Of a stretch of 38,603 nucleotides of DNA, positions 237 to 5,708 are shown piece after piece. The notes beneath the pieces are model-generated. The model did not search any database, was not told where the DNA came from, and was given only the letters and a program-made list of their open reading frames with translations. Origin of the DNA: Flammeovirgaceae bacterium (GTDB lineage: Bacteria > Bacteroidota > Bacteroidia > Cytophagales > Cyclobacteriaceae); NCBI GenBank assembly GCA_021298355.1, contig JAJTEH010000023.1:1-38603 (forward strand), read 5' to 3'. The stretch's first letter is position 1. Each line of letters starts with the position of its first letter. The position numbers and the translations under genes were made by a program.

Positions 237-1532
237 TTATCCTCCGAAATCGTCAAAGCGAATGTTTTCTTTCGGAATACCCATATCATCTAACATCTTT
301 AATACGGCTGCGTTCATCAATGGAGGTCCGCACAAATAGAATTCTACATCTTCTGGCGATTCGTGTTTGCTTAGGTAATTGTCGTACAAACATTTGTGTA
401 TGAAACCAACATATCCATCAGCTTCTCTATCGTCTAAACTTTTCTTTACCTTCCAATTGTCTTCCGGTAAGGGTTCACTTAACCCAATGTTAAATTGGAA
501 GTTCGGAAACTCCTGTTCGATTTTTCTGAAGTGATCTACATAGAATAATTCTTTCTTCGAACGGCCACCATACCAATATGACACTTTACGCTTTGTTTTC
601 TCGGTATGGAATAAGTGGAAGATTTGCGCACGCAACGGAGCCATACCTGCACCACCACCAATGTAAATCATCTCGCGTTGTGTTTTGTTGATGTGGAACT
701 CACCATACGGCCCTGAGATGGTTACTTTATCGCCAGGCTTTCTGGAGAACACATAAGAAGAACAAATACCAGGATTTACATCCATCCATTTGTTGTTCGC
801 TCTATCCCATGGTGGCGTTGCAATACGAATATTCAACATGATGATGTTTCCTTCTGCAGGGTGGTTAGCCATTGAGTAAGCACGGAAGATGGGCTCATCA
901 TTCTTCATCTTTAAATCCCATAACTTAAACTTATCCCAGTCTGGTTTAAATACGTCTTTGCTTGAGTGGCCTAACTCCGGATGTGGCGTTATGTCCATAT
1001 CCTTAAAATTAGTTTGCAATGCAGGCACATCTATTTGAATGTATCCACCGGCTTCAAAGTTTAACGTTTCTCCCGGAGGAAGTTTCACCACAAATTCTTT
1101 AATGAAAGTAGATACGTTGTAGTTAGACACTACTTCGCATTCCCACTTTTTAATACCAAAGATTTCATCCGGAATGCGGATGTTCATGTCTTGTTTTACT
1201 TTTACCTGGCAACCTAAACGCACGTTGCTTAATTTTTCGGCACGATTTAAGTGACCCATTTCAGTTGGCAATACATCGCCACCGCCTGATTCTACCACGC
1301 ACTTGCACATGGCGCACGTTCCGCCACCACCACAGGCAGAAGGCAAAAATATTTTCTCATTGGCAAGCGTTGTTAAAAGTGAACTGCCGGCAGAAACTGT
1401 AATAGTTTTTTCGCCATTAATTACCACTTTAACAGGCCCGGATTGCACCAGCTTAGCCTGGGCGAAAATTAAGAGCGCCACCAACAAAAGAATAACCAAG
1501 GTGAACGCTACAATGGAAGATGTAATAACCAT
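237..1532 (-). CDS. nqrF: Na+-translocating NADH:quinone reductase subunit F
   Basis: NqrF is the NADH-oxidising entry subunit of the Na+-pumping NADH:quinone oxidoreductase in the inner membrane. It passes electrons from NADH through FAD and a 2Fe-2S centre. The 431-residue protein has the usual layout: one N-terminal membrane anchor (about 5-25); a ferredoxin domain with the [10 protein letters not shown] cysteine cluster near residues 67-76 plus a later Cys (RLGCQV); an FAD-binding RAYSMAN motif; an NADH-binding [10 protein letters not shown] loop; and the C-terminal [10 protein letters not shown] and final DDFGG. Length is normal and all expected motifs are present. The odd point is context. 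The nqr subunits usually sit together with nqrF last, but here the upstream neighbours on the same strand are methionine genes 190 bp away, and no other nqr gene is in the window. It seems to have its own promoter (TATATTTG at 1555-1562). Confidence 0.96.
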
Positions 1533-1721: not shown

Positions 1722-2945
1722 TCAAATAATGGCCTCTGCTTCTTGTTTAATTTTGATCGGATTTAAACGAGCATCTGGTGCCAATAAAATGCTGATACCG
1801 GGTTGTTTGGATATTGCGGCAAGTTTTTCTAAGGCAATAAACCCGCGCAAAATTTCTTGTCCTTGCCAGGCGTATCCTTCCTGAAAATGTTCGAAGCTAT
1901 CTTTGGTAATGCCTTTGCCTTTTTCGAAAGATACTAAGGCCTCAACTTGCAAAGCATTTGAAAACTCGGGCACTGCGCCTTGCGTACGTTTTTTGTATTC
2001 GTACTGATAATGATAGTTGAGCGCAGAAATATCGGATAACACCGCACTGGCCGTTGGAAAACTGCCCGCTCCTTTTCCTACAAACAATTGCTTTTCGGCA
2101 AATGCACCTTCTACTTGCACAGCGTTAAACTCGTTACGCACACTGAACAAAGTATGTTGCTGACTTACCAATTGTGGTGCAACAAAACCGTAGATTTTTC
2201 CGCCTTGTTTAAACGCTCTAGCTATAAGTTTAATGGTAAATCCATTTTCGCGCGCAAAGCGAACATCTGTATCAGTAATGTTAGCAATGCCGAGGTTGAT
2301 GACGTGTTCGGGCTTTACAAATATTCCGAACGTGTGTGCAATGGCAATGATCAATTTAAACTTCGGATCAAAGCCTAACACATCTAAATCTGGGTTTGAT
2401 TCTGCAAAACCTAATTCTTGCGCTTTGGCTAAAGCACTGGCATAACTTTTTTTCTCTTCAAAAATTTTGGTGAGGATGTAATTGGTTGATCCATTAAAAA
2501 TACCTTCGATAGAGGTGATTAAGTCGTTATCATAATATTCTTCCAAATTGCGGATGATGGGTATACTGCCACACACGGAACCTTCGTATAAAACAGATTT
2601 ACCTGTTATCTTTTGTAGTTCGTAAATCTCTTGCAAGTTTTCTGCCAGCATTTTTTTATTGGCGGTAACCACATCCTTTCCATTTTTAAGGGCCTGTTTT
2701 ACAATGGTAAATGCCGCCTGCGCATCGTCTATTAATTCTACAATTACATTGATGTCTGGATCGTATAGTACATCGTTAGCCTCTGTTGTAAAATGTTGTT
2801 TGGGCAATGTTCTGTTTTTATCAGCATGTTTGATAACAATTTTTTTTATGCTTGCTTTTATGCCCTTGGTTTGGCTGATAACCTGGTGTAAACCCTGCCC
2901 TACTACTCCAAAACCAAATAATCCTATGGTTAATTCTTTTTTCAT
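1722..2945 (-). CDS. hom: Homoserine dehydrogenase (monofunctional)
   Basis: This enzyme reduces aspartate semialdehyde to homoserine with NAD(P)H, the branch point to threonine and methionine. The N-terminus carries a Rossmann GFGVVGQG loop (residues 11-18), then a TANKKMLAE segment with the catalytic-region lysines. The family signature follows: a GFAESNPDLDVLGFDPKFK stretch that binds substrate and ends in the conserved Lys. At 407 residues it is monofunctional, not fused to aspartate kinase as thrA often is. The last ~75 residues do not look like a standard ACT domain, so threonine feedback may be absent or different. It is the last gene of the metY-metX-hom unit, starting 3 bp after the metX stop. 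It probably supplies homoserine for acetylation by MetX and is controlled by the leader upstream of metY. Confidence 0.93.
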   Translation of the reverse strand: MKKELTIGLFGFGVVGQGLHQVISQTKGIKASIKKIVIKHADKNRTLPKQHFTTEANDVLYDPDINVIVELIDDAQAAFTIVKQALKNGKDVVTANKKMLAENLQEIYELQKITGKSVLYEGSVCGSIPIIRNLEEYYDNDLITSIEGIFNGSTNYILTKIFEEKKSYASALAKAQELGFAESNPDLDVLGFDPKFKLIIAIAHTFGIFVKPEHVINLGIANITDTDVRFARENGFTIKLIARAFKQGGKIYGFVAPQLVSQQHTLFSVRNEFNAVQVEGAFAEKQLFVGKGAGSFPTASAVLSDISALNYHYQYEYKKRTQGAVPEFSNALQVEALVSFEKGKGITKDSFEHFQEGYAWQGQEILRGFIALEKLAAISKQPGISILLAPDARLNPIKIKQEAEAII

Positions 2946-2948
2946 GAT

Positions 2949-3989
2949 TTATAAAAATGATACTGCTGCCGATTGATAAAATTTTCTAAAAATGTGTTGA
3001 AGTTTTTTTACTTCTGTTAAAAAGCCATCGTGCCCATATAAGGATTGAATAATCTCGATGTCGGCATGAGGTATATTTTCAGCTAATAAAATTTGTTCAT
3101 TAATTGGAAATAATATGTCGGATTCAATACCAACCACCAATGTTTTGGATTTTATTTGCTTTAATGTTTCTTCAATGCCTCCTCGCCCTCTACTTATATT
3201 ATGACTATCCATCATTTTGCTCAACGTCCAATACGAGAAAGCATTAAAGCGTCTGGCTAGTTTTTCTCCTTGGTAGTTTTGGTACGTAGATGCCCTATAG
3301 GTATCCGTTGTTTCTGTACTCTTTTCTGCTTGTGTAACAGCAAAGGTTTCATACGAACGATAGGATAACATACCGATGGCGCGCGCGGCTTTCAATCCTT
3401 CATGCCCTGCTGTTACTTCTTTATTTTTCCAGGTTGGATCGGCCGCTATGGCCATGCGCTGGGCTTCGTTAAAAGCAATACCCCAGGGCGAGTGTTGCGC
3501 ATTGGTTGCCAATAAAAGTACATGTTCGAATAAATCGGGTTCGGTAATGGTCCATTCTAAAGCTTGTTGCCCCCCCAGCGAACCCCCCATTAATGTATGC
3601 ACCGATTGAATACCCAAAGCTTTTCTGAGTAAATCGAAAGCACGCACAACATCGCGGTTGGTTACAACAGGAAAATCGTGATAATATACCTTACCGTTAT
3701 CTGAATTTATGGATAGCGGACCTGTTGAACCATAACAACTACCCAACATATTTGCACAAACAATAAAATGTTCGCGTGTATTGATTGGACTATCAGCATG
3801 AAATAAATCGCCCCACCATGTTGTTACATCTGCATTGCCTGTTAAAGCATGACAAACCCAAACCACATTGTCGCGTGTTGCATTTAACTTGCCTAAGGTT
3901 ACATACTTTAATTGGAAGCCGGGTAGTTGCCCACCCAGCTCCAACTCAAATGGCTGATTGAAATAAAAAACAGATTCGTGCTTCAACAT
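2949..3989 (-). CDS. metX: Homoserine O-acetyltransferase
   Basis: MetX transfers acetyl from acetyl-CoA to homoserine, giving the substrate of MetY. It is an alpha/beta-hydrolase-fold enzyme of 346 residues, normal for the family. Visible motifs are the CHALTGNAD and GSCYGSTGP segments of the active-site cleft, the nucleophile elbow GGSLGG with Ser137, the catalytic Asp291 in VVGIESDILFP, and His320 in YGHDGF. The family also includes serine and homoserine succinyltransferases. The adjacent O-acetylhomoserine sulfhydrylase and homoserine dehydrogenase make homoserine acetylation the sensible role. It lies 10 bp after metY and 3 bp before hom, so it is almost certainly cotranscribed. Confidence 0.94.
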   Translation of the reverse strand: MLKHESVFYFNQPFELELGGQLPGFQLKYVTLGKLNATRDNVVWVCHALTGNADVTTWWGDLFHADSPINTREHFIVCANMLGSCYGSTGPLSINSDNGKVYYHDFPVVTNRDVVRAFDLLRKALGIQSVHTLMGGSLGGQQALEWTITEPDLFEHVLLLATNAQHSPWGIAFNEAQRMAIAADPTWKNKEVTAGHEGLKAARAIGMLSYRSYETFAVTQAEKSTETTDTYRASTYQNYQGEKLARRFNAFSYWTLSKMMDSHNISRGRGGIEETLKQIKSKTLVVGIESDILFPINEQILLAENIPHADIEIIQSLYGHDGFLTEVKKLQHIFRKFYQSAAVSFL

Positions 3990-3999
3990 ATTTTATTCA

Positions 4000-5385
<1,386 letters not shown>

Positions 5386-5386
5386 T

Positions 5387-5444
5387 TACTCAGGCCGATT
5401 AAGAAAGTGTTGTAAACTTAGATTAACAACAACAGCGCTGAGTA
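5387..5444 (-). promoter_or_regulatory. Candidate RNA hairpins between the upstream ORF and metY
   Basis: In the minus-strand RNA, TACTCAG (5444-5438, inside the upstream ORF) is fully complementary to CTGAGTA (5393-5387). Nested within is a second helix in which the Cys codons, TGTTGT (5431-5426), pair with ACAACA (5413-5408). A ribosome sitting on the three final Cys codons would break both helices. No clear U-run terminator follows, so if this is a switch it may act on translation of metY rather than on termination. The helices are short and were found by eye. Confidence 0.35.
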
Positions 5445-5473
5445 GCCGGCATGCAACACATTTGCATACGCAT
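5423..5473 (-). CDS. Met/Cys-rich leader peptide upstream of metY (candidate)
   Basis: A 16-codon ORF, MRMQMCCMPATQRCCC, lies in the metY leader with its stop 103 nt before the metY ATG. Nine of 16 residues are Met or Cys, the two sulfur amino acids this operon supplies, and it ends in three consecutive TGT Cys codons directly before TAA. This is what a ribosome-sensing attenuator or leader peptide should look like (compare trp and his leaders). The ORF lies downstream of the SAM aptamer in the same transcript. Complementary segments that could form alternative RNA structures overlap the Cys codons. I see no strong Shine-Dalgarno, which is normal for Bacteroidota. That it is translated is inference; the composition and position are direct observations. 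Confidence 0.55.
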   Translation of the reverse strand: MRMQMCCMPATQRCCC

Positions 5474-5586
5474 GGGCGTACAACAACTAATTAATTGAGA
5501 AAAGATAAATTGGATGGTGTCGAAAATGGTTGACAGGTTTTGCTGTCTGTTTGTTTGAAGAAGGATAAAAAATGTTTTCATTTTTA

Positions 5587-5708
5587 AATCGGTTTATAGT
5601 TCTCCTCAACACCCGTTGGGAGCAGGATTTAGCACCTTCTTCCTTATTAGGATTGGTTGCTAGCGATTCATTGAGCCTGTTCTCTCTTCGCTTCTTTATA
5701 AATCGATT
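5587..5708 (-). ncRNA. SAM riboswitch (SAM-I / S-box type aptamer)
   Basis: Read on the minus strand, this region has the conserved S-box core. P1 is AATCGATTTATA (5708-5697) pairing with TATAAACCGATT (5598-5587), 11 of 12 bases paired. P2 is AGCGA/TCGCT around the AGGCTCAATGAA segment, followed by CTAGCAACC. P3 has a short TCCT/AGGA stem, then the invariant GGTGCTAAATCCTGC. P4 is CTCCCAAC/GTTGAGGAG. These elements define SAM-binding riboswitches controlling methionine genes. A 7-bp AT-rich hairpin (AAAAATG/CATTTTT, about 5568-5585) follows P1 and could be part of the expression platform. It stands before metY-metX-hom, a typical target in Bacteroidota. Whether Rfam would score it as SAM-I or the SAM-I/IV variant is not decided here. 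Confidence 0.93.

Follow-up and report, generated by a model that had tools for sequence, protein, structure and literature searches.

We report that the stretch of DNA analysed here (38,603 nt; hereafter the window) carries on its minus strand a SAM-I (S-box) riboswitch aptamer, a short leader ORF and the genes metY, metX and hom, in that order (with the genes running from 5319 down to 1722; Table 1). The aptamer scores well above the RF00162 gathering score of 44.4 bits for a match to sequence and structure and, from the measured spacing to the leader ATG and the size of the ribosome, its P1 stem presumably falls inside the normal footprint of an initiating ribosome. The leader stop codon is separated from the metY start by 103 nt. 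The original prediction had placed a leader peptide of only 16 Met- and Cys-rich residues between aptamer and metY; its ATG and TAA are present, but since the frame is open upstream to 5581, and since relatives also start right behind the aptamer, we reject the 16-codon extent and take the true ORF to comprise 52 codons. A counterpart of 60 aa precedes metY in a congener (G235), where it starts at +8 after the aptamer and ends CTCCMRISAAQAGCCC. Behind hom, nqrF is found both in the window (237-1532, minus strand) and in a relative (L358:2904-4205; TIGR01941, 596.6 and 611 bits, respectively), the methionine operon and a Na+-NQR gene being neighbours in two genera.

Table 1. Features of the metY leader and operon in the window.
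Feature	Coordinates	Strand	Basis
SAM-I (S-box) riboswitch aptamer	5591..5704	-	RF00162, 68.8 bits, model positions 1-108 of 108
Gap of 9 nt from aptamer P1 to leader ATG	5582..5590	-	measured spacing
Leader ORF, 52 codons, MKTFFILLQTNRQQNLSTIFDTIQFIFSQLISCCTPMRMQMCCMPATQRCCC	5423..5581	-	open frame, ATG at 5581
Sulfur tail, residues 33-52 of the leader ORF	5426..5485	-	Cys or Met at 11 of 20 residues
16-codon stretch of the original prediction, MRMQMCCMPATQRCCC	5423..5473	-	ATG...TAA; 3' end of the 52-codon ORF
ACAACA, able to pair with the terminal Cys codons	5408..5413	-	duplex, p = 0.015 in the window
Hairpin in the interval from leader stop to metY, lacking a trailing U-run	5366..5399	-	minimum-energy folds
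metY, O-acetylhomoserine sulfhydrylase, 439 aa, regulated gene	4000..5319	-	TIGR01326, 666.5 bits (cut-off 495.1)
metX, homoserine O-acetyltransferase	2949..3989	-	best match TIGR01392, 343.9 bits, below the cut-off of 500
hom, homoserine dehydrogenase	1722..2945	-	NF004976, 321.6 bits (cut-off 205)

The region upstream of metY was compared among named relatives, i.e. the best 80 of 587 metY relatives from one metY search, which form a set of related, unweighted loci. RF00162 was present at or above its gathering score in 74 of the 80, and these together with the window constitute the 75 loci analysed. An ATG follows no more than 25 nt behind the aptamer in 74 of the 75; at the remaining locus (L060) the ORF overlaps the aptamer, its start being 7 nt upstream of the aptamer end. 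Among the six relatives in which the aptamer was not matched, one (L091) has merely 67 nt of upstream sequence and another (L106) begins near the ORF with sequence resembling an aptamer end, and in the other four (L084, L102, L107 and L110) a comparable leader was not seen upstream of metY.

When the ATG was chosen by tail and frame (highest Cys count first, in-frame ATG closest to the tail second) it fell at +7 to +13 behind the aptamer at 72 of the 74 loci, and at least three Cys were found among the last 14 residues in 61 of the 74 ORFs vs 106 of 7,400 dinucleotide shuffles (1.4%), which had one ATG each. Taking the first ATG, without any choice, leaves 59 of 74 with such a tail; this ATG is located at +7 to +13 in 63 loci, at +16 in one and at +1 to +4 in ten, mostly with a second in-frame ATG behind it. 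The tail of at least three Cys in 14 is absent from 13 of the 74 leaders (chosen ATG), and in L062 and L074 a Cys cluster is present and followed by a longer tail. Residue 2 is Lys in 52 of 74, and lengths range between 18 and 57 codons at the metY loci, with 60 in G235. With the proviso that these counts ignore kinship, and that the named set and the census described below overlap, a Met/Cys-rich ORF between the SAM riboswitch and metY is conserved in most close relatives (the ORF in 74 of 75 loci, the Cys tail of the first ATG in 59 of 74). The original prediction had named beforehand the lack of such an ORF in orthologous leaders as grounds for giving it up; the ORF is present in relatives, and on this point it stands.

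At two named loci, L101 (ORF at +13) and L106 (ORF 356 nt before metY), the tails are Met-rich with a single Cys (HMAMSMPGC and RMTMPMPGC), and these are perhaps a Met-sensing version of the leader; a DNA pattern of this tail type had no match in any of 395 genomes from the class. A further observation is a DUF805 RNA (RF03081, 73.3 bits) at L089:195-262, on the upstream side of the metY region.

Several lines of evidence show that the leader ORF has the character of a coding frame. The longest TGY run (of at least three) is in the Cys frame at 51 of 53 loci when the first ATG is used and at 53 of 53 with the chosen ATG, and in 32 of the 53 leaders having such a run it reaches the stop codon exactly. 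A chance ORF is ruled out by these runs in the Cys frame together with Cys tails far above the shuffles. For nine related leader pairs, pooled, pN was 0.203 and pS 0.378 (pN/pS 0.54, where the protein alignments bias pN somewhat downward); Cys was conserved in 47 of 57 cases and other residues in 188 of 293, and 8 of the 47 conserved Cys codons differ between relatives, the residue being the same and the RNA changed. Tail composition was determined for 82 leaders from the named and census sets, 68 of which remained at a similarity below 0.7. As these were selected for Cys, which makes up 40% of their last 14 residues, the test lies in the excess of Met: among non-Cys residues it accounts for 84 of 570 (14.7%) in the tails vs 15 of 1,621 (0.9%) in the bodies, while Ile shows no tail excess (about 11% and 10%, respectively). 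Met immediately precedes the first Cys-Cys in 36 cases, and the description "Met/Cys-rich", originally given for the window, holds across the group. As a caution, ATG in front of TGT might also serve at the RNA level or provide an internal start site. Taken together, we regard it as close to certain that the ORF is genuine and that its nature is cis-regulatory.

The distribution of the leader over genes was examined in a census of 97 SAM aptamers from 37 family members, namely those listed among the matches of a search with the 52-aa peptide. Gene classes were assigned from sequence motifs and representatives were checked with family models, several of the checks (NirA-type reductase, MetX and sulfhydrylase-like) scoring below the curated cut-off; some census contigs are shared with the named records, and near-duplicates were removed in the tail-composition count alone. 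A leader with at least three Cys precedes 11 of 27 metY genes (it is absent from the other 16), all four osmC genes (one of which, L347 in the class "other", was assigned by eye), all three sulfite-reductase operons and the single gene for a sulfur transporter (YeeE/TsuA-like). For metX the association is weaker, with such a leader at two of six loci and at least two Cys at five of six. Two of the sulfite-reductase operons encode a nitrite/sulfite-reductase-type protein followed by a uroporphyrinogen-III C-methyltransferase, and further a protein with a siroheme-synthase N-terminal domain and phosphoadenylyl-sulfate reductase (CysH); their leaders end NINCCCCCCCG and CLCCCCCM. A Cys leader in front of cysteine-forming genes is as tRNA sensing predicts, and we consider it very likely, on the basis of the sequences compared, that the leader senses tRNA.

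At metH-type loci of the census, on the other hand, the leader with at least three Cys was found in 0 of 37 (metH 0 of 34, metH C-terminal half 0 of 3), and likewise in 0 of 18 loci of O-acylhomoserine sulfhydrylase-like enzymes and at 0 of 1 CGS/CGL-like gene. An ATG at +3 to +13 behind the aptamer is present at 26 of 27 metY loci, 8 of 18 sulfhydrylase-like loci, 1 of 3 loci of the metH C-terminal half and 0 of 34 metH loci, two metH loci having an ATG at +2. The first ATG in the frame of the gene itself is 38-102 nt from the aptamer at the 34 metH loci, and 47 nt in the genome of the window. With its aptamer alone, metH constitutes a built-in control within the same genomes.

Two other groups of loci with SAM aptamers deserve mention. 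At L297, L303, L315, L324, L327 and L332, ORFs without a Cys run are positioned at +7 after the aptamer and precede O-acylhomoserine sulfhydrylase-like genes; they are mutually dissimilar, some with internal repeats, and may represent another riboswitch-gated leader. At L192, L193, L195, L196 and L197 (family f23) the aptamers precede a peroxiredoxin-like gene and a NifS/IscS-like cysteine desulfurase, which are unusual targets and were named from sequence alone.

A SAM aptamer match is present in 312 of 392 genomes of the phylum. As a phylum-wide control we used 80 aptamers chosen among the approximately 150 best-scoring matches, covering 25 families with the family of the window represented once. 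An ORF with a tail of at least three Cys was found behind 0 of these 80, and one with two Cys behind 2 of 80; at the 33 metY-like loci among them the figures were 0 of 33 for at least three Cys and 4 of 33 for an ATG at +3 to +13. Since this control is devoid of leaders with at least three Cys, the Cys leader appears to have been added to an old riboswitch in certain lineages. Among the named loci it occurs in Cytophagales, Mucilaginibacter, Solitalea and a few MAGs labelled otherwise; the bacteria that carry the element are a soil and water group.

The position of the start codon and the Cys run are separable. In a genus-like group of the census (g3, Algoriphagus-like) the metY leader ATG is at +9 in 10 of 10 loci and the tail has fewer than three Cys in 9 of 10, and named Algoriphagus and near kin show the same pattern. 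That the start position is kept where the Cys codons are lost suggests that the aptamer targets the leader start itself, and lineages of this kind would be natural mutants in which the two inputs are separated. The distance to metY was also recorded: the stop codon of the 13 named leaders without the Cys tail is 5-104 nt before metY (with one at 229 nt), and that of the Cys leaders is 75-166 nt before metY when close, the others being at 240, 344 and, in six cases, 582-695 nt, which leaves room for an intervening gene (osmC-like where its start was read).

With respect to RNA structure, it had been proposed that the Cys codons pair with ACAACA (5413-5408) and that TACTCAG (5444-5438) pairs with CTGAGTA (5393-5387). 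All of these motifs are present in the window. The former pairing is moderately better than shuffles in the window and is not general across the leaders, and the latter finds no place in the minimum-energy fold, in which CTGAGTA is occupied by the hairpin at 5399-5366; this hairpin is predicted for the free RNA as well as for a ribosome placed at each of the four positions tried. Pairing between the run and downstream sequence beats dinucleotide shuffles (p ≤ 0.05) in 11 of 61 leaders. In partner-swap tests, the number of permutations as low, out of 5,000, was 107 (24 leaders), 358 (all 61), 1,145 (19) and 2,109 (20), and a leader's own pairing partner is preferred over swapped ones weakly at best. 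On the basis of the 11 of 61 leaders and the swap tests, pairing of the Cys codons with downstream sequence was dropped as a general mechanism.

An RNA switch conserved across clades was not found between the leader stop and metY. In one clade a hairpin after the stop (R1; 12 pairs) is well supported, with 89.3% of cells paired vs at most 42.9% with slid partners, and with 25 cells in which both partners have changed, a number that none of 500 shuffles reached; two further measures are not clearly above shuffles, i.e. pairs changed on both sides (31 of 500) and further pair types (401 of 500). All 19 loci (drawn from L033-L054, with L093 added; e.g. L041:1387-1457) were chosen for a GUGAC motif (GUGGC in one), and the loop is invariant by this choice. 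The R1 model matches these 19, which they do by construction, and no other of the 82 sources, the window included; among 281 genomes of the order it matches four, all of one genus and with one copy each. Being clade-specific, R1 is excluded as a general output device. Pairing of its loop with the metY start (AUGUCA) was considered and dropped because that start also occurs without the loop.

Terminator-like sites are few as well. Terminator-like sites were absent from the minus strand of the window between 5250 and 5850, and across loci they were present within 110 nt behind the aptamer in 7 of 74 (2.2 expected) and in the leaders in 9 of 54 (3.3 expected), which led us to reject a general intrinsic terminator behind either aptamer or leader. 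At four-fold sites G amounts to 12.8% in the leader vs 20.6% in metY, and C to 21.8% vs 27.4%; as C is also lower in the leader, there is no clear C-over-G signal of the Rho type. Overall, G makes up a small share of the leader bodies (12%) and of the 60 nt upstream of metY (6%). The leader start region is unpaired with the aptamer 5' side in 15 of 74 minimum-energy folds.

We interpret the element as a serial combination of two cis-acting controls, a SAM-I riboswitch and, behind it, a leader peptide for sulfur amino acids, a reading to which we assign a probability of roughly 0.72. At high SAM, a stable P1 would cover the upstream part of the leader initiation region, the ATG being about 10 nt further on, such that the leader would remain untranslated and metY off. 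At low SAM the leader would be translated, and if Cys-tRNA (or Met-tRNA) is short the ribosome would stall on the Cys and Met codons adjacent to the stop codon; a ribosome stalled near the 3' end of the leader is envisaged to favour expression of the sulfur-uptake gene behind it. Candidates for this output step are Rho-dependent termination, a structural switch and control of metY translation. The short and narrow spacing between aptamer and ATG suggests that translation initiation at the leader ORF is what the aptamer controls, and gating of the leader by SAM is in our view likely. Two-level sulfur control, as originally proposed, is retained as the best reading in the modified form that a single message appears to check two stages of sulfur supply in series; the proposal that aptamer and leader are separate inputs is not favoured given the narrow spacing. 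A broader version, for which we would put the odds at even, is a transferable Bacteroidota module in which SAM gates a leader reading Cys-tRNA and Met-tRNA, the sulfur-entry regulon (metY, metX, sulfate assimilation and sulfur transport) opens only at low SAM combined with a shortage of the amino acids, and metH, which does not fix sulfur, is equipped with the aptamer alone.

The reading that comes closest to challenging the series arrangement is that of two independent controls on one transcript, where the riboswitch has its own expression platform and an ordinary Cys attenuator is merely nearby. It draws on metH, whose aptamers in these genomes do without a leader of this kind and have the ATG 38-102 nt away. 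Against it stand the narrow range of start positions behind the aptamer at metY and the +9 start kept in g3 where the Cys run is mostly lost, and a general S-box terminator was not seen (terminator-like sites within 110 nt at 7 of 74 loci, 2.2 expected); we consider it unlikely. Another view, compatible with the series arrangement, concerns the output: translation of the leader might keep Rho off or be coupled to metY, with the Cys tail timing the last ribosome and no RNA switch involved. The lack of a conserved RNA switch and the few terminator-like sites are in keeping with this, as are the stop codons of non-Cys leaders 5-104 nt (one 229 nt) before metY and those of Cys leaders at 75-166 nt and beyond; the four-fold sites without clear C-over-G bias and the conserved hairpin in one clade speak against it, and coupling across about 128 nt would be unusual. 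We hold this output to be a tentative possibility, somewhat short of probable.

Two readings that dispense with tRNA sensing are far less probable. In one, the TGY repeats are maintained for RNA pairing in a hairpin upstream of metY and the reading of Cys is incidental, for which the better-than-shuffled downstream pairing in the window (p = 0.015) and the well-supported hairpin of one clade speak; however, at 51 of 53 loci the run shares the Cys frame with the first ATG, the tails are enriched in Met and not in Ile, 8 of 47 kept Cys codons vary synonymously and the pairing is not general, and we give this explanation very little weight. The same applies to a functional small Cys-rich protein, binding metal or sulfide and made with the sulfur genes: the ORF is conserved and its C-terminus rich in Cys, but beyond an initial Met-Lys and the tail both sequence and length (18-57 codons; 60 in G235) vary widely, no Pfam family was matched and NCBIfam gave one far sub-threshold match for the window peptide, which makes such a protein highly improbable. 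Searching 291 genomes of the order with the 52-aa peptide gave weak matches besides itself (best other E-value 0.0017), as expected of a fast-evolving leader. In the genome of the window, TGY-TGY-TGY-stop occurs at 46 places; among the 30 examined in context, the metY leader alone resembles a Cys leader before a sulfur gene, as judged from translated starts. At 20 loci of the PAPS-reductase family in 10 genomes, no Cys leader was found within the 1.5-kb flanks, outside of which the operon starts may lie.

The gene content of the host bears on the sulfur source. A nitrite/sulfite-reductase domain (NIR_SIR) was not found in the genome of the window (97% complete), in G235 or in 4 of 10 other genomes, and the PAPS-reductase domain gave a sub-threshold match in the former and strong matches in G235. 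The source organism is probably unable to assimilate sulfate, and its MetY probably uses sulfide or another reduced sulfur source.

Riboswitches and leader-peptide attenuators are usually separate devices, and RNA regulation in Bacteroidota is poorly charted. In the present case both devices share one leader with a narrow geometry and recur at several sulfur operons of one family. If the series reading is correct, a metabolite sensor and a tRNA-charging sensor would be connected one after the other by a single small ORF, Bacteroidota would have a concrete amino-acid attenuator, and a function would be provided for small ORFs that gene finders may miss. The combination of a SAM riboswitch with a Cys/Met leader peptide was not found among the matches listed in the literature that we searched by titles and beginnings of abstracts, with subscription papers and preprints mostly outside it; where "SAM riboswitch" and "leader peptide" are both used in a text, the terms occur apart in the portions available.

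In terms of known classes, the element resembles amino-acid leader-peptide attenuators in being a short ORF before a pathway gene and enriched in codons for amino acids of that pathway, and it resembles mycobacterial polycysteine uORFs in having a Cys run near the stop and preceding sulfur genes. The window aptamer is a full-length member of SAM-I (S-box; RF00162, 68.8 bits); it differs from classical S-box transcription control in that there is no intrinsic terminator directly downstream of it, the metY leaders studied here being without a general one and having the leader ORF close behind the aptamer. The mycobacterial polycysteine ORFs are the subject of an experimental paper from 2020 by Canestrari, and are reportedly leaderless according to its title; here, the aptamer of about 110 nt before the ATG argues against a leaderless message. 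For the cys operons of mycobacteria, as Cys leaders of Actinobacteria, polycysteine ORFs have been predicted, with no obvious terminators in the part of the text available (PMC1262725), and they are cited in the accessible part of a further paper (PMC13236596). As described there, these are likewise short ORFs with a Cys run at the end, before sulfur or cysteine genes (PMC1262725), whereas the leaders reported here are behind a SAM aptamer, occur in Bacteroidota, are mostly of 30-57 codons and have Met codons beside the Cys run.

Other systems share single aspects, as far as the accessible sections of the sources describe them. In Rhodobacterales, uORFC-8-2 before cysS has tandem Cys codons, as in the present leader, and ribosome-mediated attenuation has been proposed; it differs in having an intrinsic terminator, and a riboswitch is not mentioned in those sections (PMC8632094). 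The ppe2 uORF of Mycobacterium tuberculosis is a translated leader controlled by a B12 riboswitch, with the downstream gene depending on its translation (PMC11260477). The likeness would be that of a riboswitch-controlled leader, which for the present element is suggested by its geometry; the differences are the ligand, B12, the stop/start overlap of uORF and gene, and that a run of amino-acid codons is not mentioned in the sections available (PMC11260477). The metA SAM-II riboswitch of Sinorhizobium meliloti is also a SAM riboswitch on a methionine gene and acts on translation, but it concerns two in-frame start codons of metA itself, and the same sections do not mention a leader peptide (PMC9373788). 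Within the phylum, leader peptides have been hinted at for a flavobacterium (PMC9723704) and for Bacteroides (PMC7366714). Hence, both parts of the proposed regulator are known from other systems, and what appears to be new, to us and to the literature searched in the portions available, is that they are placed one behind the other, in a conserved manner, across a sulfur regulon.
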